Assembly (NCBI GenBank): GCA_030524055.1
Contig: JAUNHH010000016.1
Location: 8,447-51,043, forward strand
DNA from: Actinomycetaceae bacterium
Lineage (GTDB): Bacteria; Actinomycetota; Actinomycetes; Actinomycetales; Actinomycetaceae
Reading direction: 5' to 3'
Length of the DNA stretch: 42,597 nt
Each line of letters begins with the position of its first letter. Position 1 is the first letter of the stretch. This document shows, piece by piece, positions 3,366 to 42,077 of this stretch. Under the pieces are notes generated by a model that searched no databases, was not told the origin of the DNA, and saw nothing but the letters and a program-made list of their open reading frames with translations. Made by a program: the position numbers and the translations under genes.

Positions 3366-6074
3366 ATGTTCACAGCCTCTCGCACAACCTGGATTCGCCT
3401 CTGGGCGGTCCTCACTTTTGTGGGGATCTGCCTGGGGCTGGTTGTGCCCGCCGCAGCAGCGACACCAATGGACACAGGCGCGCCTGGGGTTGCGGCGCAG
3501 GCGCAAACCCCGCCCGCTACTCCCGCTGAAGAGCCCGCCCCGCCAGAAATCCCGATCCCAGACATTCTTGACGCTCAGGGCGCGTCTGCAGGTTTAACAG
3601 TCACTATTGATGGCATATCTCCACGGATTATTACCCACCAGGATTCTTTTACTATTTCTGGCACTATACGTAATGACAGCGAAGAAACCGTGTCAGCTCC
3701 CTCGCTGACCGTTGGTGGTAGCAGCACTGCCTACACCACGCTGGCCGAAATTGACGAGCATTTTTCTGGTGACAGTTGGCTGCCTCAAGATCTCGCGCAG
3801 CAGACCCTTGACCTTGATCTTCCCCCTGGCTCCGCAACTACCTTTTCCCTCACTATTTCCTCTGATCAAGCGGGCCTGACCGATTCCACCCAATGGGGTC
3901 CACGCGGAATTGAAGTCACTGCCAGCGCAGGTGGCGTGGAAGGATCAGACCCCGCCCTCGTTATTTGGGTACCCGACACCCCCAAACGGTCAACAACCAC
4001 ATCAATCGTTGCCCCCTGGACACGCAGCACAACTGATGCTTCCGCCATTGGAACGCTAGCCTCCACATCGGGGGTCACCATTGGCATTGACCCGACCGTG
4101 GTCCCTGACATCCTTCCGTCAGATACACCCAACGAGGACGGGGCCGACAACCCCTTAGAAAACGTCCTCAAAGCACTCACGGGTGCGGGGGGCGATACGA
4201 CCGACTCCATCCAATCCGCGTCCAGGGCATTGGATCGAGCTCAAAGCCAAGGCTGGATTGATATCTTAAAATCCGGCAATGAGGTTATTGCCCTGCCCGA
4301 ATATGACGCTGACCTGGGCCTTGGTGCCAAAAGTTCCGACCGCCTTTTCTCTTTAGCGGCAGCCAGCCGCGGAAATCTCCAGACACGCCTCGCTGATCTC
4401 AATGCGGATTTAGGGGCGTTAGAAACCTTCCGGTCAAACTCAGAAAAACCCATTACCCCTCAATCCGGGCCTGAAAACACCCCAGCTCAAAGCGGCAATG
4501 GAACGGGGGTGAATGGCAGCCCACCCAGCAATGGCAATGGCGCGCAATCTGCTGATAGCTCCACAAGCGCAGGGGGCAACGAGGAACCTCAGAGCCCACC
4601 CACCAACGCTGAGAACCCCCACGACGCTGGCACTGCCCCAGACAGCGCCCCCAGCAGCGATACCCCTCAAAGTGGAAGTGTGGCCAGCCCGAACTTACCC
4701 CAATCTGCTCCGCGCGCCAGCGCTCGCGGCGGGCTCATCCCAGCGGGGGTGCCTGTCCGTGAAGACGTCGTATGGAGTTCCGATTCTTTTGGCCTGCCTC
4801 TGCTTCAGCGTCTGCCCGGCGATATTCATATGGCCACCGCCGGCCAGGTCCGCCCCGTTGAAGACCTGGGTTTTATTTCCGTATCCCGCGTTGAGGTGGA
4901 TCCTTCTAGCGGGGAAACGGTGACACCCGAATCACCTGAGACGGGCAGTGAATCTGGCGAAGGTTCCACTGATACGGCCACTGTGTTGACCTCGGAAGAA
5001 TCCCTCATCCACCTGCTCGCGTGGAACCCACCCAATCCTGGTCTTGCATTAGATCAGCAGCAGATTCTTGCCGCTTTAGGTGCGGTGATTGCCCGCCAAG
5101 ACGACTCTGGTCAACAGTCTCTTTTCCTGCCCTTGCCACGAGGAATCGCCTTAGATTCAGGGCTGGCGGCGCGAGCCAATGCGGTCATGTCCTCGCCCTG
5201 GGTTCAACCTGCGTCAATCAGCCAGTTGGCGGCATCAACAGCTACCGATGTTGAGCGGACGCCTGTCACTGAGGCGCCCATCTCGCAGGTGGCTACTGAT
5301 GCTCTTGCGTCATTGGAGCAAACCTTAGAGTCAGCACATGCGTTGATTGCCGCAACGGAAGATCCGCAGGCTGCAATGGATTCGGTTGAGGGGACTTTCC
5401 TTGCGCCCCTGGCAACTGGAACCAGCGACGCCTCGCGGACAGGGTTGGTGGGCCGAGCTGAAGCGGAAGTCGATACCCTGCTTCATTCGGTGACGGTTGA
5501 ACCGTCTGTGACAATTAACCTCATTAATAAGTCGGCGAATTTCCCTGTCCGTATCCGCAATTCGCTGCCGTGGCCTGTCACGGTCCGCGTCACTTTAGAT
5601 CCGTCAGATCCGCGCCTGAGCGTGGTGCGTCCTGTGGATGTCACGATTCCTTCTGAGTCCGCGACAACAGCTGAGGTCCCTGTGGCGGCCATTGGGTCGG
5701 GGGATATTACCGTGGCCTATAAAGTCACCACTGTTGATGGGTTTTCGTTGGGAGACTCCGATTCGGTCATGGTCCGAATGCGGGCCGAATGGGAAGATGC
5801 AGCTACTGCGGTCATTGCCATTGTTGTCGCGATTGCTTTTGTCGCAGGTTTAGCGCGAACCATTGCCCGACGTATGAAAGCCAAACGTGCCAGTGGTGAC
5901 AGTTTGCCGAAAGCGCTTCTTCCCGGCATTGGCGGGGGCAGTGCAGATTCATTGACGAGGGCGGAGGGCGCCTCTTTAGGGACCCCACCGCCAAGTGAAT
6001 CACCTCATCCATCTGCGTCACCGCTGGGCCGCAGCTCGCCAGATGAGTCTCCTCCAGGCGACGTGACACCCTGA
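3366..6074 (+). CDS. DUF6049 family secreted/membrane-anchored protein
   Basis: A 902-aa exported protein of unknown biochemical role, found in actinobacteria immediately upstream of murJ (compare M. tuberculosis Rv3909). It has an N-terminal signal peptide (residues about 1-35), a beta-rich ectodomain, a low-complexity Asn/Gly/Ser/Pro stretch at roughly 365-460, a second large ectodomain, and a single transmembrane helix near 812-835 followed by a basic then Ser/Pro-rich cytoplasmic tail. This layout suggests a cell-surface protein anchored at its C-terminus. Synteny with murJ suggests a role in envelope assembly, but that is inference. ATG 3366 follows the NUDIX stop by 8 nt, with AAGGCGG as ribosome binding site. 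Confidence 0.85.
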   Translation: MFTASRTTWIRLWAVLTFVGICLGLVVPAAAATPMDTGAPGVAAQAQTPPATPAEEPAPPEIPIPDILDAQGASAGLTVTIDGISPRIITHQDSFTISGTIRNDSEETVSAPSLTVGGSSTAYTTLAEIDEHFSGDSWLPQDLAQQTLDLDLPPGSATTFSLTISSDQAGLTDSTQWGPRGIEVTASAGGVEGSDPALVIWVPDTPKRSTTTSIVAPWTRSTTDASAIGTLASTSGVTIGIDPTVVPDILPSDTPNEDGADNPLENVLKALTGAGGDTTDSIQSASRALDRAQSQGWIDILKSGNEVIALPEYDADLGLGAKSSDRLFSLAAASRGNLQTRLADLNADLGALETFRSNSEKPITPQSGPENTPAQSGNGTGVNGSPPSNGNGAQSADSSTSAGGNEEPQSPPTNAENPHDAGTAPDSAPSSDTPQSGSVASPNLPQSAPRASARGGLIPAGVPVREDVVWSSDSFGLPLLQRLPGDIHMATAGQVRPVEDLGFISVSRVEVDPSSGETVTPESPETGSESGEGSTDTATVLTSEESLIHLLAWNPPNPGLALDQQQILAALGAVIARQDDSGQQSLFLPLPRGIALDSGLAARANAVMSSPWVQPASISQLAASTATDVERTPVTEAPISQVATDALASLEQTLESAHALIAATEDPQAAMDSVEGTFLAPLATGTSDASRTGLVGRAEAEVDTLLHSVTVEPSVTINLINKSANFPVRIRNSLPWPVTVRVTLDPSDPRLSVVRPVDVTIPSESATTAEVPVAAIGSGDITVAYKVTTVDGFSLGDSDSVMVRMRAEWEDAATAVIAIVVAIAFVAGLARTIARRMKAKRASGDSLPKALLPGIGGGSADSLTRAEGASLGTPPPSESPHPSASPLGRSSPDESPPGDVTP

Positions 6075-16351: not shown

Positions 16352-18097
16352 CTATTCCGTCGGTCCACCAATAATGTCAGCAATTCGCTGTAAGTCTTCA
16401 GGACCAGCGAATTCAATAACAATCTTGCCCTTAGTGCGTCCTTCTGTAATCTGCACGCGAGTATCGAAACGGTGCTGAAGAGAAGCAATTACTGATTGCC
16501 CCAGGGAACTCACAGGGCGCGTTGCTCGTGGCTGGGTTTCACGTGGAGCTTTCACTTTACCCAGGCGCACAAGTTCCTCTGTTGTCCGTACAGACAGGCC
16601 TTCAGAAACAATCCGGTCGGCGAGGATTTCCATTTCCTCTGGCGTTTGCAAAGCGAGGAGAGCGCGAGCGTGACCAGCAGAAATCACCTGAGCGGCCACC
16701 TTTGTTTGGACTGCTGCGGGAAGTTTCAGCAGCCGCAGGGTATTGGCAATCTGCGGACGTGAACGCGCAATCCTTCGGGAGAGTTCCTCTTGAGTGGTGC
16801 CAAAGTCAGCGAGAAGCTGCTGATAGGCGGCTGCTTCTTCAAGGGGATTAAGTTGGGCGCGGTGGAGGTTTTCCAGAAGCGCATCGCGCAGAAGGTCGCC
16901 GTCTTCTGTTTGGCGAATAATTGCTGGGATTGAGGGGAGGCCCGCACGTTCGGAAGCACGCAGGCGACGCTCACCCATAATCAACTCAAAACGCGCATCA
17001 GGCTTGTCTTTGAGGTATTCCAAGAGACGCTCAGAAGGTGCTTCTGCCGTTGAGATCGGGCGAACAACAATAGGTTGGAGGACGCCAACTTCCTTAATCG
17101 AGTCGGAAAGTTCCGTTAAGTCCTCTTCATCGAAGTATTCACGTGGCTGGCGGCTATTCGGGATAATCCACTCAAGCGGGAGCTGCGCAAAAGAGGCACC
17201 TTCTACAACGGGGTAGGAGGTCTCATTCTCGTCCTCATGACTATCCACCTCAGTGGTGGTGTCAGCAGATTCGGTTACGGCATCTGGCGTCTCCGCCGCG
17301 TCCAGGGTGTCTGCCGTCGGGCTATTGTCTGCTGCAGGGGTGTCGCTTTCTGTTGCGTTCTGGTTGTCCAGCGCATCGTCGCTATTGTCATTAACGAGGC
17401 CGGGGCCAGATGAGGCAGAATCGCTCTCCGTAGATGCAGGTGCCTCGAAGGATTCAGAAGTATTCCGGACGTCCGGGGTAGGGGTGGGTTCTGCAGGGGC
17501 GTCCGCTGACGCTTCGTCTATTGCCACGTCTTCTGGAGTTGATTGCGTAGAGGAGGCATCGGTGTGCGGCTCTGCTGATTCAGGAACGTCTGGGATCGTG
17601 TTGGCTTCCGCTACCGTGGCTTGAGCATTGTCTTCTGGGGCCGGCGATGTTTCACGTGAAACAGTACTGTCATTGCTAGTAGAGACTTCAGGGGCTGACG
17701 CAGGTGTGTCAACGGGAACCACTGGTGTAGGTGTAACTTCGTCAACCTCTACCGGGGTAGGAGCGGCGTTCTCTGCCTTTTTGGAGGTACGACGTGACTG
17801 GGCAGACTTAGAGGTTGATCGCGAGGTCCGTGGATTGAGAAGATCGCGATGACTACTGGCACGCTGAGGAGCCTCTTCCGTTGATGTCGAACGTTCCGGG
17901 AAGAAAACATCAATAGGGCGTGCCGTCCGGACCACATCTTCAGTGGAAACCTCTGGAATAAGAGCCCCTAAACCCTTACCAAGCCCGGCTCGACGAGAGC
18001 GCGAACCGCTAGACGTGGATGCAGCGGACTGTGCCCCACTCTTCGGGGATGTTGCCCGAGCCGCGCGGGTAGACGGGTCCTTGTCAGCCTTTGCCAT
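16352..18097 (-). CDS. parB: Chromosome-partitioning protein ParB with extended acidic linker
   Basis: A 581-aa ParB, the CTP-dependent clamp that loads on parS and spreads to build the partition complex. GLGKGLGALIPE at about 39-49 is the N-terminal ParA-contact segment. Residues about 65-295 are a Ser/Thr/Asp/Glu/Pro/Ala-rich, surely disordered linker. The ParB/Srx CTPase domain begins near 300 (LPLEWIIPNSRQPRE), with the GERRLRASERAG CTP motif near 374. The helix-turn-helix is TQEELSRRIARSRPQIAN, and a C-terminal dimerisation domain ends the protein. Typical chromosomal ParBs are about 280-380 aa, so the linker accounts for the extra length. ATG 18097 has CAGGAGGAG upstream. A perfect parS lies 32 bp before the start codon and another within the gene. 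Unusually, parA is 8.2 kb away. Confidence 0.97.
   Translation of the reverse strand: MAKADKDPSTRAARATSPKSGAQSAASTSSGSRSRRAGLGKGLGALIPEVSTEDVVRTARPIDVFFPERSTSTEEAPQRASSHRDLLNPRTSRSTSKSAQSRRTSKKAENAAPTPVEVDEVTPTPVVPVDTPASAPEVSTSNDSTVSRETSPAPEDNAQATVAEANTIPDVPESAEPHTDASSTQSTPEDVAIDEASADAPAEPTPTPDVRNTSESFEAPASTESDSASSGPGLVNDNSDDALDNQNATESDTPAADNSPTADTLDAAETPDAVTESADTTTEVDSHEDENETSYPVVEGASFAQLPLEWIIPNSRQPREYFDEEDLTELSDSIKEVGVLQPIVVRPISTAEAPSERLLEYLKDKPDARFELIMGERRLRASERAGLPSIPAIIRQTEDGDLLRDALLENLHRAQLNPLEEAAAYQQLLADFGTTQEELSRRIARSRPQIANTLRLLKLPAAVQTKVAAQVISAGHARALLALQTPEEMEILADRIVSEGLSVRTTEELVRLGKVKAPRETQPRATRPVSSLGQSVIASLQHRFDTRVQITEGRTKGKIVIEFAGPEDLQRIADIIGGPTE
16536..16549. other. parS-like site, 2 mismatches, inside parB 3' part
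   Basis: Reads GTTTCACGTGGAGC. Lies in coding sequence and may be chance or a weak ParB site. Confidence 0.3.
17649..17662. other. parS: parS, perfect, inside the parB linker
   Basis: Perfect GTTTCACGTGAAAC within parB, read as V-S-R-E-T on the coding strand in the disordered linker, where sequence constraint is low. This leftmost perfect site brings the ParB-binding zone into the gene itself. Confidence 0.9.
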
Positions 18098-18128
18098 TGC
18101 TCCTCCTGGAAGTCACGTGCCTCCTATT

Positions 18129-18142
18129 GTTTCACGTGAAAC
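18129..18142. other. parS: parS, perfect, 32 bp upstream of the parB start codon
   Basis: Perfect GTTTCACGTGAAAC placed between parB and any upstream promoter, so ParB bound here could repress its own transcription (inference from position). Confidence 0.95.
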
Positions 18143-18411
18143 GTCCACACGTCAGCTCGACAGACCGTGATTTTTACTCAGATTCGCCATCGAGAACCTT
18201 CATCAACGATTCTCCCGCCTGACATGGGAAATGCTCCCTATAGTGCTCAGCTAAATGCGCGGCGGATGCGTACCTATGTCTGGAATACTTTCATCCTCTA
18301 CACACTCTGTCTGCTAGGGCGTAAGTATCAGCGGCAATTCATTGCGGCGGTGGAAATACACACTCGAAAGAGTCTCCACGGCTCAGGAAAGGGATGACAA
18401 TACGGCTCCAT

Positions 18412-18425
18412 GTTTCACGTGAAAC
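18412..18425. other. parS: parS, perfect
   Basis: Perfect 14-bp site extended to 16 bp as TGTTTCACGTGAAACA; 270 bp from the previous site. Confidence 0.95.
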
Positions 18426-18659
18426 ACAACGGCTTTCTGATTCCTCCTTCTGCTCACTCCAGATTCTCTATCTAAGAGGATTACAGCGGCAGCAACTGCA
18501 TTCTTCTCTATATTCGGATAGCTCGTCTCTGCGCGGCAAAAAGAGTTCCTCTAGTCGCCCTGTGAAAAGAGATCGGACCCCGCCCTCGCTTATCTCCCAT
18601 TCAGAGATGAGCGAGGTATTCAGCGGATATATCCTCACGTCCAGTAGGGGACCTCTGGC

Positions 18660-18673
18660 GTTTCACGTGAAAC
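18660..18673. other. parS: parS, perfect
   Basis: Perfect 14-bp palindrome; a G-rich repeat copy (18578-18588) lies 70 bp to its left. Confidence 0.95.
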
Positions 18674-18778
18674 AGGTCAGGTACTTCAGCGCTGACAAAT
18701 CCCTTGGAGAGAAGAGGGGGTTCCCTATAGAACACCTTCGCCATACCCCTAACGTACTCATTTCAGGCGGCTACAATT

Positions 18779-18792
18779 GTTTCACGTGGAAC
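18779..18792. other. parS: parS variant, 1 mismatch
   Basis: Reads GTTTCACGTGGAAC (A to G at position 11). The left half-site is perfect. Confidence 0.75.
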
Positions 18793-19096
18793 ACTTGCCT
18801 TTTGCGGCGATCGATTTCCGGGGCAGAAGCCTCTGTGAGCCGCTAGAGGCTGACGCCTATTGGCTTCGGCAATATCAAATGCCTGTATAGTGACGCTCCT
18901 TCGTATTCTCTGCCTCATTGCTCACTGACAGAGGGTGCGTGCATTGCGCTCCCTATACTCCCGCGGCCTAATATTCCCCCGCACAATAGTTTCAAGGGCT
19001 CATTCTGTCATTCTTATGCTGGACAGAATCCACTATTTTTACGCGGCCCGACATTTGTCGCCTACTAGGGAATAGGTCTATCTACACCTCGGCTCC

Positions 19097-19110
19097 GTTT
19101 CACGTGAAAC
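19097..19110. other. parS: parS, perfect
   Basis: Perfect site followed by ACTACTCGCC, the same right flank as the next two sites, marking it as the first of a duplicated series. Confidence 0.95.
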
Positions 19111-19406
19111 ACTACTCGCCGATATTTCTTCCACATGAGGGTGACTGGCACTGCTGACCAGAATCACCACCTTTTTGCGGGGTGGATTCTGCCCTAGGTG
19201 GGACAATCGGCATTGTCTGCGTAGCTCTATTCCCCTTGTAGGGATGCAGGACACTCAGGAACCAGCGCTGCGCGAGAATACTCTGCACAGTGTGGCGGGA
19301 GATTGACTTGAAAAACAGAGACCCGCAATTGCAATAAGAAGGCAGCCCCAAATCCGAGCAATAGGGCAAAGAGCAGCACGCAAAATAGCCCAGGCCTTCA
19401 CCCTCG

Positions 19407-19420
19407 GTTTCACGTGAAAC
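19407..19420. other. parS: parS, perfect
   Basis: Perfect site at the left boundary of a 301-bp repeat unit. Confidence 0.95.
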
Positions 19421-19707
19421 ACTACTCGCCTTAGTCTCTCCTAGGGGAGAAGTACTTTCCCTCAATAGACAGCGGCCTCCACACTCGGTACATCACTATT
19501 GTTTCGTAGTCGTGCTTGGACTGACCCTCCCGCATCTTTATGGCTAGTTATTCGCATTCGGAAGAACCAAGCAGTACCGCCCGCGCACTCGCTACTACCT
19601 CACCTTCGGAGAGCGTTTTGCTCCTCCACCATGGATAGACGCACAATACCGGGGAGAAGAGCCTTGAGGCAGCAGCATTCTCCACTCACCCTTTCCCGCA
19701 ATCCGAC

Positions 19708-19721
19708 GTTTCACGTGAAAC
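19708..19721. other. parS: parS, perfect
   Basis: Perfect site at the left boundary of the second repeat unit; preceded by ATCCGAC like the site at 19927. Confidence 0.95.
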
Positions 19722-19926
19722 ACTACTCGCCTTAGTCTCTCCTAGGGGAGAAGTACTTTCCCTCAACAAAGAGCGGAGCCCACATTCGGTACATCACTAT
19801 TGTTTCATAGTCGTGCTCGAACTGACCCTGTAGTTCTATGGCTAGGGAATTGCCAGCCAGTACCGCGCACTCACATTCTCCACTCACCCTTTCCCGCAGT
19901 GCCATCCAATTCTCCCGTGATCCGAC

Positions 19927-19940
19927 GTTTCACGTGAAAC
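19927..19940. other. parS: parS, perfect
   Basis: Perfect site closing the second unit of the 19.4-19.9 kb duplication. Confidence 0.95.
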
Positions 19941-20313
19941 ACTATTGCCCAGGTGAGTCTTACAGCGGGAGGACGTGTAACCTCTAACGTCACACGCACA
20001 GCGCAGATTCGTCAGGACGCTGAATTGGCGCGCTTATTATTCTCTACTTTCTGTAGGCCTATTCTGTAATGGCGACCGGCTATGCTGACTCACTTCCACT
20101 CCAGAAGGACTCCCTCTACTATGCTCGACATCCCGGCTAAAAGAGTAGGAAAGTAAATAGAGAGGAAGTCCGGTTAAACACGACGTATTCTCTACTCGCC
20201 CAGCAGGGGCCATTCTTTTTGAGCAGCGATATCCCCCGCAGATATCAACCAAACGCGAATTGCGGCAATACAGCACATAGCGCCACGTAAGGTATTGCCA
20301 CACACGATCCGCT

Positions 20314-20327
20314 GTTCCACATGAAAT
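20314..20327. other. decayed parS-like site, 3 mismatches
   Basis: Reads GTTCCACATGAAAT; loses the central CG. Probably a relic or very weak site. Confidence 0.4.
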
Positions 20328-20545
20328 GTAATGAGGGTACTTGTCGCGGGCACTAGGGCTCTCCCTCTTATGCCGCCCCACAATGCCCAACCTCCTCTGA
20401 TAAAAGTGACATCCGGTTGATAGAAGAGAAAAGGTGAGCGAAACGCCCTTATTGGCATCCTCAGCATTGTTCTTTGCTTGCGGGGCGTCCTCAGTGACAA
20501 GCAGTCCCTCCGCAACCACTCAGAAGGCATAGAGGGCAGTCTTTC

Positions 20546-20559
20546 GTTTCACGTGAAAC
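20546..20559. other. parS: parS, perfect
   Basis: Perfect 14-bp palindrome, 300 bp before the next perfect site. Confidence 0.95.
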
Positions 20560-20845
20560 ATTTGCTTCCCGCTAAGGGTCCGTCAGTACCCTGGGACAGG
20601 TCCCTTCACAGAGGTCTAGCCTTCCCAATGAAGTCTCACTTCGCTACCCCAAAGGAACCTCTCTCAGTCTGCACTAGGCACGGGTGAGTTGGAGGAGTGG
20701 CCCACCTGGGCTACCGCGGCTGACATATTTGGACTCGGTCAATTGCCGCTATAAAGCGATAGTCTCTTTTTACGCGCGCTCAGAATAGCCCCTTAGAAAG
20801 GTGGGACATATAATCCCAGGCATTTCTTTTTGCATCGCCACTGCC

Positions 20846-20859
20846 GTTTCACGTGAAAC
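20846..20859. other. parS: parS, perfect
   Basis: Perfect site at the left edge of a unit homologous to those at 21163 and 21736. Confidence 0.95.
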
Positions 20860-21162
20860 ATACGGAGCCGATTCGTGCAGAGCAACTCATTGGGAGAAAT
20901 ACGCATCTTCACTAATCTACGCCGACGAGAAACTCCGGGCATTAAATCCTCTCTCTCCCTTGCCACCGATACCTCCTTCCGTGGCAGTGAGGTCAGCGCT
21001 GAGGATTCCTCAGTGAATACATCGTGTACGCAAGCCGCTACCTATTCTCTCCTTAGGGTCAATGAGGACCTCAATTCGAGACCTGCCATCATTGGGATTC
21101 GCCTATTTCTGCAGCCCCAAATAATTAGCACCGTCTATCTATCCACTATAGGGTCACCTTCT
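20846..21162 (+). repeat. Diverged copy of the X half-unit of the parS array
   Basis: Starts with parS and shares patchy identity along its length with 21163-21434 and 21736-22012: the right flank of parS, a CCTCAATTCG block, a CCCAAATAAT block, and a CTATAGGGTCACC-like end before the next parS. Confidence 0.75.
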
Positions 21163-21176
21163 GTTCCACGTGAAAC
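21163..21176. other. parS: parS variant, 1 mismatch (T4 to C)
   Basis: Reads GTTCCACGTGAAAC; left edge of the first ~575-bp repeat copy. Confidence 0.8.
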
Positions 21177-21434
21177 ATATAGAGGTGATTTGTACGCAGC
21201 GATATATGGGGGGAAATAGTCATCGTCACTGCCTCCCTCCTCACCGCTCCTACCGGGCATAGCAGCAAGGTCTCTTCTCGCGCTTCCTCAATCAGCGCGC
21301 CATGGTGTGCCGCCCATTTGATCCCTAGAATCAGTGGGCGCCTCAATTCGGGACTTCCCATCAATTGGCATTAACCTATTTCCCCGCGCCCAAATAATAG
21401 GCACCAGCTTCCTTTCCGCCATAGGTCACCTTAT

Positions 21435-21448
21435 CTTCCACGTGGCAC
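21435..21448. other. decayed parS-like site, 4 mismatches
   Basis: Reads CTTCCACGTGGCAC. It is recognisable because the paired repeat copy has a near-perfect site (22013) at the equivalent place. Confidence 0.45.
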
Positions 21449-21601
21449 AGTGACCTCCTTGTATTCCTTCGCGACGGGGTATGGGGACCGCCGAGCTTTA
21501 GCAGGAGAGGCGAGTATTTATTCTTGTTGGTAGTGACGGGTGTCTGGAAGCAAGAAAGCAACTTCACCGACAGAATGTATCCACCTCTTAAGTCAGCCTC
21601 T

Positions 21602-21615
21602 GTTTCACGTGAAAC
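21602..21615. other. parS: parS, perfect
   Basis: Perfect site inside the first ~575-bp copy; its counterpart in the second copy is the one-mismatch site at 22189. Confidence 0.95.
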
Positions 21616-21735
21616 ACCTATCGCTAGTGAGTAGTCAACGCTCGCCGTCTCAAAGTGTTCCCTTTTTCAGAGTCTCGTCGGCGGAGAGGAATAGGCCTTT
21701 GCCTTGCCGGAATAAGGACATACGGGAGCAGGAAT

Positions 21736-21749
21736 GTTCCACGTGAAAC
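21736..21749. other. parS: parS variant, 1 mismatch (T4 to C)
   Basis: Reads GTTCCACGTGAAAC; junction between the two ~575-bp copies. Confidence 0.8.
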
Positions 21750-22012
21750 ATAGCCAGATGATTTGTGCGGAGCAATTCAGGAACGGAGATGCTTATCATC
21801 ACTGGCACTCTCCCCAGCACTCCTACCACCCAGAGCAGCGAGGCCAGTTCTCACACCTCCTCAATCAGCGCGCCATGGATGTGCGGCGCTGCCCACTCCC
21901 TCTCTAGAAGCAATGGGCTCCTCAATTCGCGACTTCCCATTGATTGGTACTCGCCTACTTTTCGCGCCCAAATAACATGCGCCAGCAATCTCTCCGCTAT
22001 AGGTCACCCTAT

Positions 22013-22026
22013 GTTCCACGTGAAAC
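22013..22026. other. parS: parS variant, 1 mismatch (T4 to C)
   Basis: Reads GTTCCACGTGAAAC; equivalent of the decayed site at 21435. Confidence 0.8.
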
Positions 22027-22188
22027 AGTGACCTCCTTGTATGCCTTCTCAAAGGCGCATGGAGTGTCGCTGACGGTATAGCGGGTGAGGCGACTACTCA
22101 CTCGTCGTAGTAGCGGAGCTCGCGACAGCAGGAGCTAACTACACCGACAGAATGTGCGCACCTCTTAAGTCAGCCTCTGCTTCACGTG

Positions 22189-22202
22189 AAACACCTATCG
22201 CT
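22189..22202. other. parS: parS variant, 1 mismatch (T2 to C)
   Basis: Reads GCTTCACGTGAAAC; equivalent of the perfect site at 21602. Confidence 0.75.
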
Positions 22203-22312
22203 AATGGATAGTTAACGCTCGCCGTCTCAAAGTCTTCCCTTTTTCAGAGTCTCGTCGGTGAAGAGGAATAGGGCCTTACCTTGCCGGAATATCGATATAC
22301 GCGAGTAGGAAT

Positions 22313-22326
22313 GTTCCACATGAGAC
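22313..22326. other. decayed parS-like site, 3 mismatches
   Basis: Reads GTTCCACATGAGAC; marks the right end of the second ~575-bp copy. Confidence 0.45.
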
Positions 22327-22615
22327 ATTCGAGGGCGCCACTCCGCTTTCCACTTTTGCCGAAGAATGGCTATTAGGGAGGGCTCGTAGTAGACCAGTGA
22401 AAGGAGTGGATCGCTAGGAGTAACGCACAGCAATTATTTTGCCCCGATCCCACAATCCTGCCAGTCGAGTTCCAAAGGCTTCAGGCTAGTGAGTCTCTAA
22501 TCTCAGCACTCCAATATTTCCGCCCCGCATCCGAAGGCGAAGCAGCATAGCGCAGTCTTATACAACTCCATGCCAGCCATCTAGGGCTGACACTTTGCTC
22601 CCGTGCAGTGCCAGT

Positions 22616-22629
22616 GTTTCACGTGAAAC
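22616..22629. other. parS: parS, perfect
   Basis: Perfect site, 16-bp form TGTTTCACGTGAAACA. No duplicated flank recognised. Confidence 0.95.
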
Positions 22630-23204
22630 AGCCGTCCAGATAGTGAGGAGCATTCATAATCCGACCTACATTAGATCTGGTATTTCCCCACAAGATGTCA
22701 TTGGGCTCAGCGCAACCCTGTTAAACGTCGGGGAAAGTGAAGGCAACACCTGATAGTGAACTCCGAGGAGTAACGACGTTGACAGAAGCATGCTGGTAGA
22801 ACTTGCGATAGATGCAGAGAGCAAAGATAACCACCACCCGCTTCAACATCCGCCTTCACTTCGCTTCATCAATTGTGCGGCAGTCGCCCGCCGAACCCAA
22901 GAACTCGGCAGTCGAAAGAAATACCTCTCGGCCCGGAGGAGGTATTGCGCTGATCCAATTCAGAAGATCCTCACGTTGGCCCGTCAGAGAAAACAGATCT
23001 GCCTAGGACTCTTACGGGGTTCATTGCTATATGGGCGAAGGTGAATAGTGGACCAAAGCTCCTTAATAGGGGCGGGCACGACCCGGTGTCACCCGCCTGC
23101 CTGCAGTGACTGCCAGTTAAATGCGGCATCCAAGTTAGAGGCCCCTCATAGCTAGCCCTCGCTATCAATCGACATTGCGCAGACTACCTTCGAGGAAAGC
23201 AGTC

Positions 23205-23218
23205 GTTTCACGTGAAAC
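23205..23218. other. parS: parS, perfect
   Basis: Perfect site; spacing widens here to nearly 600 bp on the left and 715 bp on the right. Confidence 0.95.
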
Positions 23219-23678
23219 AATTCCTATCTGCCCATCAGAAACGTAGCCTCCAGAAAATGCTCCGGTATGCAATGGGAGTATTTTCCTGCGCCCGTTAAAG
23301 GGGCCCTGCAATGCTAAGCCCAAAGTAATCGAGTCAGGAGGCCCACGCCTCCCTTATAGATGCACTACATTGCTGGGCAGCAAAAGGATCCGGTCTTCCT
23401 CGTCACCACATCGGCTTACGGGTCATTTTGTGTGTCAATAAATCCTACTTTTCGGTGTGATCACGGCCGAAAGGCAGAGTTTCTTAGCGTTCGAGGCTAA
23501 GAATTTAAGTGCTGGGTGACATCCCCTCCGATTGTGCTGGGCAGACGCGCTACTTAGGACATGCCTAAAAAGGACCCATCCCGACCGCTGTTTAGACTAC
23601 GGAGTCTCTCACACCAGGACAAACCCGACACACCTCTACCACCACGCCCTTTGGGCTGACAGTCTGCTACAGGGAGTG

Positions 23679-23752
23679 CAACACCAAACGGGCAACGGGC
23701 GACAAAAGCGGCGTCTTTGGCTGAAAATGTCGCCCTTTGACCGTCTGGTGCA
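23679..23752 (-). repeat. Dispersed stem-loop element, copy 1
   Basis: On the minus strand this ~74-bp segment matches 42003-42077 on the plus strand at roughly three quarters of positions. Both can form a stem GGGCGAYA / TRTCGCCC with an inner GCC/GGC pairing, then end in CGTTTGGTGT. Nature unknown: it could be a small mobile repeat or a structured RNA. Confidence 0.6.
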
Positions 23753-23919
23753 CCCAACCTGCCAGAGATAGCCTCTTTCAACGGGGCAGAATTCTCAGTC
23801 AAGTGTCCCCATAACACGGCGACAATAGAGCCATCTTTTCTCCCGTCACCCCCAAATCCAACCATAAAGTCCGCTGAATACACTATCTGCTTCAGGCGAG
23901 AGAGTGGAGACGGGCCGTT

Positions 23920-23933
23920 GTTTCACGTGAAAC
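23920..23933. other. parS: parS, perfect
   Basis: Perfect site after the largest gap in the array; the stem-loop element (23679-23752) lies inside that gap. Confidence 0.95.
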
Positions 23934-24409
23934 GGTGATGTCATTAAGTGAGCGCTTCCGCCAAGAGGCCATCCTCCCACACAGCAAAATCAATGACTAT
24001 GCTGCACGTGCCCGGGAAAGAGAGCAAGGAGTCTCTGTGAAATGACGCCCTCTCATAGTCGCGAATATCCAGGGCAATCATGCGAGAGGGGGCTAGTCCA
24101 AGCTCACCTTTATGGCGAATCCCTGCGCTATGAATAGGCTGCCGTTTTAAATTGCAGGCGATATATTCATTGCTGGGCTGCTCAAGTGGGTCACGAATGC
24201 AGAATAGAGCGGCTGTCAGGAGTGAAGAGATTGCTAGGTTTCTCCTTCCTATCGTGCCTCATTTGCCTCTAGTAGCGGAATGGCAAGTGTGCAGACAGCC
24301 TTCCCTTCGGTGCTGCCCATATTTCACGAGGGCGAAGCGCCGATAGCCCCACCTTTTTTCCTTCGAGATACTGTCCGCCCTATGTCGTCTAACTGGACTT
24401 CGCCAATCT

Positions 24410-24423
24410 GTTTCACGTGAAAC
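24410..24423. other. parS: parS, perfect
   Basis: Perfect site, followed 240 bp later by a T4-to-C variant. Confidence 0.95.
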
Positions 24424-24649
24424 GCTGCTTTTATATGGGCGCAATTTTTCTTTCACACAGCGGTATCGTCAAATAAGGGTCTTCCACTCGTCACCTCTAC
24501 CTAGGAGGTAAAGGAGTCTCTTTTTGCTTTCATTGAGGGAGGAAGTTCCACACATCTCTGGAGCAGAGATCCTCTTCGAGGAATAGCGCCAGCAAGTCCC
24601 CACTGAGAATCATGCTTCGCATAGGCACCTATATAATCGTGACTTCTCT

Positions 24650-24663
24650 GTTCCACGTGAAAC
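24650..24663. other. parS: parS variant, 1 mismatch (T4 to C)
   Basis: Reads GTTCCACGTGAAAC. Confidence 0.8.
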
Positions 24664-24923
24664 AGTCGCCTTTGCCCGCTCACTTTGCGAGCAGAACATC
24701 TTTTCTCAACGAGCACCCCTCCTCCACTTAGACCTGCCTGTAAAAGTGCGCCTACGCAAACCAAAGAATTACATGTAGCGCTGTATGGGAGCAGTAGGCA
24801 GGTGCAGTCTCAGCCAACGCAGTGGTGAGAAAATCTATGGGCGGAGACTTTCACTATGCCCCATATTTTGCCCCTATTTCTTCTCTCATACCGGAAAGCC
24901 GAGGCTTCTCTTTCCCTACTTCT

Positions 24924-24937
24924 GTTTCACCTGAAAC
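24924..24937. other. parS: parS variant, 1 central mismatch
   Basis: Reads GTTTCACCTGAAAC; the central CG step is changed, which may weaken ParB binding more than outer changes. Confidence 0.65.
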
Positions 24938-25274
24938 ATCCGCGCCCTACGGGAACTACTACCTTTTAGCATTAGGGCAATAGTCGAGTCCATCGTGTGC
25001 AGGAAACTCAGCCCAATAGAAAAGATGACGCCTTCGATAGCAGCAGACCCACATGCACCTCACATCGCTAACTAGGAACTATGCCCTCGCCAAGGCTGGC
25101 AGATTGAACTCATCAGGATAAAGACCGTGCTGAAATGAGAGGCGCTTCCCTAAAGGTATGCCGACGGCCCTTCTTTTGCTTCTGACCTCCACGCGGAAGT
25201 AGAGTGGCACCACTTCACGTCCGAAGCCTCCTTTAACTGAGTGCATTTCACCTATAGGACCCGACTCACTTGCC

Positions 25275-25288
25275 GTTTCACGTGAAAC
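25275..25288. other. parS: parS, perfect
   Basis: Last perfect site on the parA side, about 970 bp past the parA stop codon. Confidence 0.95.
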
Positions 25289-25868
25289 ATTCTCCAGGGC
25301 AAAGACGTGTGGCCTGTATTTGCCCGCTGTCAGCGTAGAAATACCTTTCGCGGACTACGGCAAACAGTACCTTTCAGGAAGCCCTTCTGATACGCCCCAA
25401 ACACCACCCCTACCCTGGCAGGGTTAACCACCTCTAGCATTAACAGGATTGCTTCTACCTCCTTCCACAGGCGGAATAGTCCATCGCCGAATCAAATCCC
25501 GTATCCCTTGCCTTCCTAAAGTCGCATGCACAATAGACTGGACGTACTATCCCACTATTCCTTGCATCTAGTCGCCTTCGCTGAGTGTCCTCACACGTGC
25601 TAGGAAGGGTGCGTTTCTCGTTTCCCATTTTTGCGAGCTTGCTAGAACAGGCATCCCTATTTCTCGGTCACGCTATCTAGGAGCCCTAGAGTTCCCTTCG
25701 CATGTGATATCTGCAGAGAAAAGCACGTTTCTCAGAAGGCTCCACTCCACTATTTTATGGCGTCAGCACACTCTGCATCGGATACCTTGCGACAGCGTGA
25801 GAAGGCAGGCCCACCATTTCGCGATCGACAGATAACACGGCAAAAGAGTTCTCCACACACGGCATTGT

Positions 25869-25882
25869 GTTCCACGTGAAAC
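25869..25882. other. parS: parS variant, 1 mismatch (T4 to C)
   Basis: Reads GTTCCACGTGAAAC; right border of the array, about 370 bp from the parA stop codon. Confidence 0.8.
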
Positions 25883-26255
25883 ATTCATTTCCTAGAAGGC
25901 GATGCCTCCTATTCACAGCGGAGTAGTGAATGCGGCTACTGCATAGCCCCTACGGTACAGAAATTCCCAACTCTCTATACCTAAGCTTCGGGATTGGCCA
26001 CCAAGCCAATGAAGCACAGACGTCCTCACATTTTTCAGAGTGGAAACCTTGCGTGGAAGCCTTGCGCAGCCAAACCCACCCCTACCCCGGAAATAGATCC
26101 TGGCATCCATTGGGACGCCACTTCATTATTGATCCCGCTAAAATCCGCATTCGCCAAGGCAGTGTCAGTATCTCTCGTGGCTGATATTCACAACAAAGCC
26201 GGAGATGTCTTAAACACCCCCGGCCTCGTCAATGGAAAAAGATGGCCCGACCTAC

Positions 26256-42002: not shown

Positions 42003-42077
42003 TGCACGAGACGGGCAAAGGGCGATATTTTTGCCTGAAATCCGGCTTTTTTGTCGCCCTATGCACGTTTGGTGTCG
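42003..42077 (+). repeat. Dispersed stem-loop element, copy 2
   Basis: Begins TGCACGAGACGGGCAAAGGG and ends CGTTTGGTGTCG. The stem GGGCGATA / TGTCGCCC uses a G-U pair where copy 1 (23679-23752, minus strand) has a Watson-Crick pair, so the structure is kept despite sequence change. Confidence 0.6.

Follow-up and report, generated by a model that had tools for sequence, protein, structure and literature searches.

The 42,597-nucleotide stretch analyzed here (the window; Actinomycetaceae bacterium, assembly GCA_030524055.1, contig JAUNHH010000016.1, positions 8,447 to 51,043) contains the parB and parA genes of a chromosome partition (ParABS) system, together with a dense array of parS-type ParB sites. 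Scanning the window for GTTTCACGTGAAAC with at most one mismatch, we found 24 sites at 17649-25882, 16 of them perfect and 8 with a single mismatch, at a mean spacing of 357 bp. An earlier reading made from the letters alone (the sequence-only reading) had claimed the same counts within about 8.2 kb and a spacing near 350 bp, both of which the rescan reproduced; its placement of the array between parA and parB is right for 23 sites, whereas the first (17649) lies inside the parB open reading frame (ORF). The sites are palindromes of the TGTTTCACGTGAAACA type and stand near dnaA, which is characteristic of a chromosomal ParABS system.

The parS array and its gene-free setting

Within the organism's own genome (3,034,260 bases in 47 contigs) exactly 24 matches with at most one mismatch occur, all of them in the array, so that the claim of no further copies in the window holds at this stringency and extends to the entire 3.03 Mb; the reversed pattern, used as a control, matched once. 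The expectation by chance for GTTTCACGTGAAAC, even with two mismatches allowed, was 0.09 sites (100 shuffles, largest value 1), and a chance origin was rejected on the comparison of 24 observed with 0.09 expected. The only two-mismatch match in the window, at 16536, falls within parB. The density amounts to 2.9 sites per kb (24 sites in 8.2 kb), and the spacing, with a largest interval of 715 bp, has a coefficient of variation of 0.44 against 0.94 under random placement; none of 20000 random placements was as even.

The mismatch spectrum is sharply divided. Gap sites with zero to four mismatches number 15, 8, 0, 2 and 2, compared with shuffle means of 0, 0, 0.01, 0.27 and 1.99 (300 shuffles), and the four-mismatch class therefore shows no excess. 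Among the eight mismatched sites, six read GTTCCACGTGAAAC on one strand or the other, with C replacing the fourth base or its mirror position. The Bacillus parS consensus, TGTTNCACGTGAAACA, is open at the position where these six variants carry C; by this consensus we take GTTCCACGTGAAAC to be a regular parS variant, and GCTTCACGTGAAAC and GTTTCACCTGAAAC not to be. Beyond the 14-mer, A at +14 (21/24) and T at -1 (15/24) match the 16-bp parS, and C at -5 (16/24) and T at +16 (14/24) are also frequent, partly through duplicated copies. Since C at -5 is as common as T at -1, the 16-mer is not claimed as the sole common element.

The term gene-free is used here as judged from three-base periodicity, ORF length and Pfam matches. 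In 600-bp windows the periodicity of the gap had a median of 1.2 and a maximum of 2.1 (38 windows), against coding medians of 10.1 for parB, 8.5 for parA, 8.1 for the gene at 3366-6074 and 6.7 for dnaA-gyrA; in 402-bp windows, a threshold of 2.5 was exceeded by 99% of coding windows and 1.3% of gap windows. The longest stop-free run is 173 codons, and 100 simulations averaged 168 (p 0.39). Pfam gave nothing at E<=1 for six of the seven ORFs that lie within the gap or extend into it, and for the other one match far below cut-off (E 0.1). Gene remnants were rejected on these grounds (flat periodicity, ORFs of chance length, no Pfam match above cut-off), and the description of the region as DNA without credible genes stands; the same three measures revealed no conserved coding genes in the gap.

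Both partition proteins are recognizable. ParB comprises an N-terminal GLGKGLGALIP segment, a long linker, the ParB_N domain and a helix-turn-helix (HTH), with its N-terminal CTPase domain (PF02195) and central HTH (PF17762) both above cut-off; the C-terminal dimerisation domain PF23552 matched weakly (20.4 bits, below the cut-off of 23.8), as did the 69-residue Spo0J chain 5noc (E 0.00018). Structure matches were to ParB and Spo0J structures, the best being 7bnk (E 6.1e-44), and the GERRxRA and ENLHR blocks are invariant across 11 aligned sequences. The next gene beside parB on the gap side, 8158 bp away, encodes the Walker-type ParA ATPase. Past parA the order is rsmG, jag, yidC, rnpA, rpmH, dnaA, dnaN, recF, gyrB and gyrA (all window genes except parA and parB were named by eye from their translations). 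SMC is encoded on another contig, C41 (TIGR02168, 839.2 bits, cut-off 567.35). The coordinates are collected in Table 1.

Table 1. Partition genes, selected parS sites and repeats of the window.
Feature	Position	Strand	Remarks
parB, 581 amino acids	16352..18097	-	PF02195 E 1.6e-27; PF17762 E 7.1e-34
parS site 1, perfect	17649..17662		within parB linker, read V-S-R-E-T; pattern scan and ORF translation
parA-parB gap, gene-free, 8158 bp	18098..26255		23 parS sites, 15 perfect and 8 single-mismatch
parS nearest parB, perfect	18129..18142		32 bp upstream of parB start codon
Internal duplication	19407..19829		about 122 bp repeated 301 bp apart, 92% identical, perfect parS in each copy
Decayed parS, three mismatches, GTTCCACATGAAAT	20314..20327
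Internal duplications	21162..22328		573-578 bp apart, 76-89% identical; parS copies part kept, part decayed
Decayed parS copy, four mismatches	21435
Decayed parS, three mismatches, GTTCCACATGAGAC	22313..22326
Last parS, GTTCCACGTGAAAC	25869..25882		374 bp from parA ORF end
parA, 299 amino acids	26256..27155	-	AAA_31, PF13614 E 2e-53; KGGVGKTT P-loop
dnaA	31408..32820	+	5.5 kb from last parS; named from translation by eye

The gap also contains a dispersed repeat (23657-23826), which has a copy at 42003-42075 on the minus strand and matches the organism's genome at 42 further places, over 30-171 bp and with 75-93% identity (40 of 107 candidates scored). As single-stranded DNA it folds better than 200 shuffles (z -3.2), with the hairpin GGGCGACA...TGTCGCCC. 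Rfam gave no match at this repeat, which by its sequence may be of the repetitive extragenic palindromic type or resemble a miniature inverted-repeat transposable element.

Distribution of arrays in the genus, the family and the phylum

The par loci of all 34 other genomes of the genus set (35 with the window, one genome per species) were compared, with parB starts assigned by an approximate rule and distances taken from the parB start to the parA match. The two genes are 112-623 bp apart in 28 of the 34 congeners, in agreement with the claim that they are usually adjacent; five genomes have 1436-2529 bp with 1-5 sites, and one, the species G015, has 6738 bp. Genome-wide counts at up to one mismatch are 2-8 in 33 of the 34 and 15 in G015, where all 15 sites lie within the parA-parB gap, non-coding by periodicity. 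The search of related genomes that the sequence-only reading had proposed thus led to a sister species, G015, whose gap of 6.7 kb holds 15 sites.

A local tree of five proteins of the par-yidC region, in which the large Actinomyces node has a support of 0.42, joins the window and G015 as sisters (0.98) and places G046 and G048 as their nearest relatives (clade 0.999). The gaps of these two measure 2529 and 1436 bp and hold 3 and 2 sites. This graded series is qualified in two respects: part of the G046 gap shows periodicity resembling that of coding DNA (up to 7.3), and three genomes outside the clade (G007, G008 and G009) likewise have gaps of 1.6-2.3 kb. Between the gaps of the four clade members, the five best DNA matches per pair span 18-47 bp and, in the cases where coordinates were compared, overlap with parS sites. 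Two further observations concern the genus loci. A parS inside the parB frame is present in 1-3 copies in 33 of the 34 other loci and is absent from that of G015. The parA-parB gap of G008 contains a 47-amino-acid fragment in opposite orientation, 62% identical to ParA (L042 8941-9081), perhaps a relic of gap growth by duplication, judging from the sequence.

The sister array also bears on whether the window array could be an artefact of assembly, as might be feared in a draft assembly with 47 contigs. Misassembly is unlikely, given that exact direct repeats in the gap reach 59 bp at most and that a like array lies in a 2.56-Mb contig of G015; in addition, the array is internal to its contig (C12:26095-34328), and arrays downstream of parB occur in the one-contig genomes G054 and G071. 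Assembly error was therefore rejected on repeat length and on the arrays of well-assembled relatives, and we regard it as extremely improbable.

Across 213 Actinomycetaceae genomes, 27 have at least 12 sites genome-wide (counted by eye), and the 24 of the window are the maximum. We pooled 74 family loci, the 35 of the genus and 39 others picked mostly for high counts (40 genomes outside the genus were searched for ParB, and G196, which gave no match, was dropped). Dense arrays, defined as at least 10 sites within 8.3 kb, occur at 28 of the 74 loci and in three positions: in the parA-parB gap (the window and G015), downstream of parB (G138 and 21 of the 26 loci retrieved from genus g17, Actinomyces) and upstream of parA (G140, G143, G151 and G157). 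Parsimony on the 74 loci requires 9 changes of the dense-array trait, against a mean of 22.5 with shuffled labels, which indicates that the trait follows descent yet was gained or lost several times; because the loci were chosen for high counts, the 9 changes are not a rate. Of the 396 sites at the 28 dense loci, 304 fall in windows of non-coding character. In 80 loci of named records, found by ParB similarity, the highest counts within 8.3 kb were 15 and 14, in two Actinomyces already included as G081 and G053, and the remaining 78, some on short contigs, had at most 9 each.

These positions are informative on a regulatory role, in which ParB spread over the gap would tune or silence parB and uncouple it from parA, the array acting as an autoregulator or ParB sink and not as a centromere. 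In its favour are the perfect site just upstream of parB, from which autoregulation of parB is possible as far as the sequence tells, the site inside parB, and the separation of two genes that are near neighbours in most congeners. However, 26 of the 28 dense loci have the array downstream of parB or upstream of parA, parA and parB are only 18-151 bp apart in the 26 fetched g17 loci, 24 sites are far above the need, and promoter- and terminator-like matches in the region do not exceed those in shuffled sequence (4 against 6.7 and 6 against 8.4). We consider this explanation distinctly unlikely.

Some genomes showed site counts that extend past the par locus. Three small genomes, G110, G226 and G195, have 19, 18 and 13 sites genome-wide compared with 5, 3 and 4 in the par locus, and their sequences suggest that further site clusters may lie elsewhere. 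In the phylum sample (396 genomes), the 3.2-Mb genome G484, which belongs to family f16 within the order of the window, carries 21 sites with no more than one mismatch and is a candidate for a dense array. The phylum survey also included 19 genomes of genus g58, which we take to be Streptomyces, with 8-35 sites; the parS sites of Streptomyces are scattered over a far longer stretch, unlike the single gene-free block of the window.

The highest counts came from family f40, of the same phylum and another class, perhaps Eggerthellaceae as we presume. Six genomes (G506, G463, G360, G607, G516 and G547) carry 159, 113, 128, 55, 34 and 64 parS 14-mers at up to one mismatch, with controls at 0, and five searched again contain 135, 110, 114, 49 and 28 perfect copies. 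The 100 places listed for G360 are scattered over the chromosome, denser at 2.2-2.4 Mb. Of 15 close spacings at the loci retrieved from G360 and G506, 10 measure 34-35 or 48 bp, and a longer palindrome, ATGTTTCACGTGAAACAT, fits 11 of the 14 listed copies; 45 of 66 fetched f40 sites fall in coding-like ORFs by a crude ORF rule, and a reading of them as operators is unsure. That the same 14-mer occurs perfectly 110-135 times in three f40 genomes, in G360 scattered and often paired, would suit the idea that another palindrome-binding regulator with a parS-like sequence owns the sites of the window. Against it, all of the window's sites are at the parAB locus and fit parS, and all but one are non-coding, with no target genes between them, so that we judge such a regulator very improbable.

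Constraint on sites and possible neutral growth of the gap

In the Actinomyces genomes G051, G070 and G071 the arrays are orthologous, with 15 sites in 4.5 kb downstream of parB at near-equal spacing. Identity is 0.990 at site columns and 0.793 elsewhere, and 11 of the 15 site windows are invariant, compared with 78 of 3278 other windows of equal width. With G091 added, identity drops to 0.811 at sites and 0.641 elsewhere, and 5 of 21 site windows are invariant compared with 5 of 2015 others; site conservation is lower because part of the G091 sites stand elsewhere.

Pairwise alignment of 14 Actinomyces arrays yielded 91 pairs, of which the 30 with the highest non-site identity were inspected. 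The six pairs with non-site identity of at least 0.60 kept 123 of 124 aligned sites (each counted from both sides), and two pairs at 0.58-0.60 kept 16 of 19 and 14 of 23. For the other 22 of the best 30, site identity was 0.41-0.63 against a non-site identity of 0.48-0.54, which we take to reflect mostly failed alignment. The tree neighbours G053 and G054 have none of 17 aligned site positions in common, which shows that site positions can turn over. Taken together, the alignments suggest that sites are constrained in one Actinomyces group, with positions turning over in others.

A neutral expansion, in which the gap grew by tolerated duplications and insertions and the extra parS sites are redundant copies against which selection does not act, few of them mattering, has to be weighed against such constraint. 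It would account for the diverged internal duplications with their decayed parS copies, the dispersed repeat in the gap and the turnover between G053 and G054; in Corynebacterium glutamicum, moreover, ten parS sites can be reduced to one with growth like that of the wild type (PMC7083940). It fits poorly with the complete lack of two-mismatch sites in the gap, the even spacing, the strong site conservation in the arrays of G051, G070, G071 and G072, and the recurrence of dense arrays in several branches of the family. On balance, we find a purely neutral origin rather unlikely.

The array as a probable enlarged centromere

Judging from sequence comparison, the array is probably the centromere of a chromosomal ParABS system of the ordinary kind, grown from a handful of parS sites into a regional form. 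In the accepted model, CTP-bound ParB clamps are loaded onto DNA at parS and then slide along it, and each site of the array would be a loading point for such clamps. With a mean spacing of 357 bp, a largest one of 715 bp and sliding over about 0.7 kb (710 bp was fitted for Caulobacter, PMC10387095), neighbouring ParB zones would merge into a continuous coated segment. Summed over the array with this sliding length, ParB coverage has a minimum of 2.1 and an average of 3.7 single-site units, in a model of plain superposition without mutual blocking whose total scales with site number. The coated segment would present a large cargo to ParA and give SMC one compact place to load; a preference for parS clusters is named among the factors limiting SMC collisions in Bacillus (PMC8357415). 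Growth of the array may have proceeded by expansion of the gap, local duplications and the birth of sites, with selection retaining enough intact ones. The extra sites most likely buy robustness, as has been proposed for the ten sites of Corynebacterium (PMC7083940), and the gene-free state may be a consequence of intergenic growth as much as a design against transcription. Of the dedicated partition platform proposed in the sequence-only reading, the dense gene-free array near dnaA is supported, and sites are conserved in one group of comparable Actinomyces arrays. The sequence-only reading adds that ParB may slide more freely in DNA without transcription and may form an unusually strong complex.

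Several points weigh against an enlarged, selected centromere. All congeners except G015 manage with the low site numbers given above, some parS copies in the window array have decayed, and a three-site congener locus (L046) already reaches an average coverage of 2.0 single-site units against 3.7 in the window. The window array has no alignable ortholog, so that the evidence for selection is drawn from Actinomyces arrays, where constraint is not uniform once G091 is included and where G053 and G054 share no positions. The sufficiency of one site in C. glutamicum belongs here too, as do two statements of PMC10387095: the Caulobacter model matches the ParB profile without an effect of transcription, which is little or mild, and separated parS sites could favour SMC loading.

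The claim that no such array had been described did not hold. In Myxococcus xanthus 22 parS sites are packed into 3 kb, some 4 kb upstream of parA (PMC3899335; 24 sites by the count of PMC3778016), which resembles the window in that 20 or so sites or more stand in a short stretch near parAB and the origin; the ParB of M. xanthus binds the cluster in vitro. That cluster is denser (about 7 per kb against 2.9), belongs to another phylum, has the consensus TGTTCCACGTGGAACG and lies upstream of parA, not between parA and parB; given the other phylum and position, an independent origin is assumed. Streptomyces coelicolor and Listeria innocua are similar in having up to 20-23 parS sites near the origin (PMC7333895). 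C. glutamicum has ten clustered 16-bp sites, with ParB chromatin immunoprecipitation peaks at 10 of 10, and is comparable in that 9 of 10 are intergenic, but its cluster spans 35 kb and lies 73 kb from oriC (PMC7083940); clustering of parS within 5-40 kb is called usual in PMC8357415. Plasmid centromeres with one parS cluster (PMC10387095) differ, the array here being chromosomal, with parS and ParB of chromosomal type. A search by title and start of abstract, within the open-licence literature, found no description of such parS arrays in Actinomycetaceae; one paper so found, on the genome of Actinotignum schaalii (PMC5720513), contains the terms parS and ParB. The parts and the principle are thus known; novelty, as far as seen, lies in the placement of the array between parA and parB, in the graded series, in the recurrence of dense arrays in three positions and in the evidence for site constraint, and the gene-free design is a further unusual feature.

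PMC7333895 poses as an open question why parS numbers are so variable although a single site is often enough. Site numbers within the genus run from 2 to 24, with the majority lying close to parAB at the loci examined, and the dense sister pair with its smaller-gap cousins offers a natural experiment for relating array size to ParB load, focus size, SMC loading and the fidelity of segregation. The recurrence in the family and the conserved sites in at least one group argue that larger arrays bring something selectable, and the comparable arrays in relatives suggest that bacterial centromeres can grow in evolution. Tentatively, and with confidence just short of even, the position turnover between G053 and G054 being the reason why we stop short, we propose that Actinomycetaceae may repeatedly convert point-like into regional centromeres: gene-free DNA beside parAB would expand and be seeded with parS sites kept by selection, in three positions and, within one clade, through graded gaps of 1.4, 2.5, 6.7 and 8.2 kb, so that centromere size itself would be an evolving trait.

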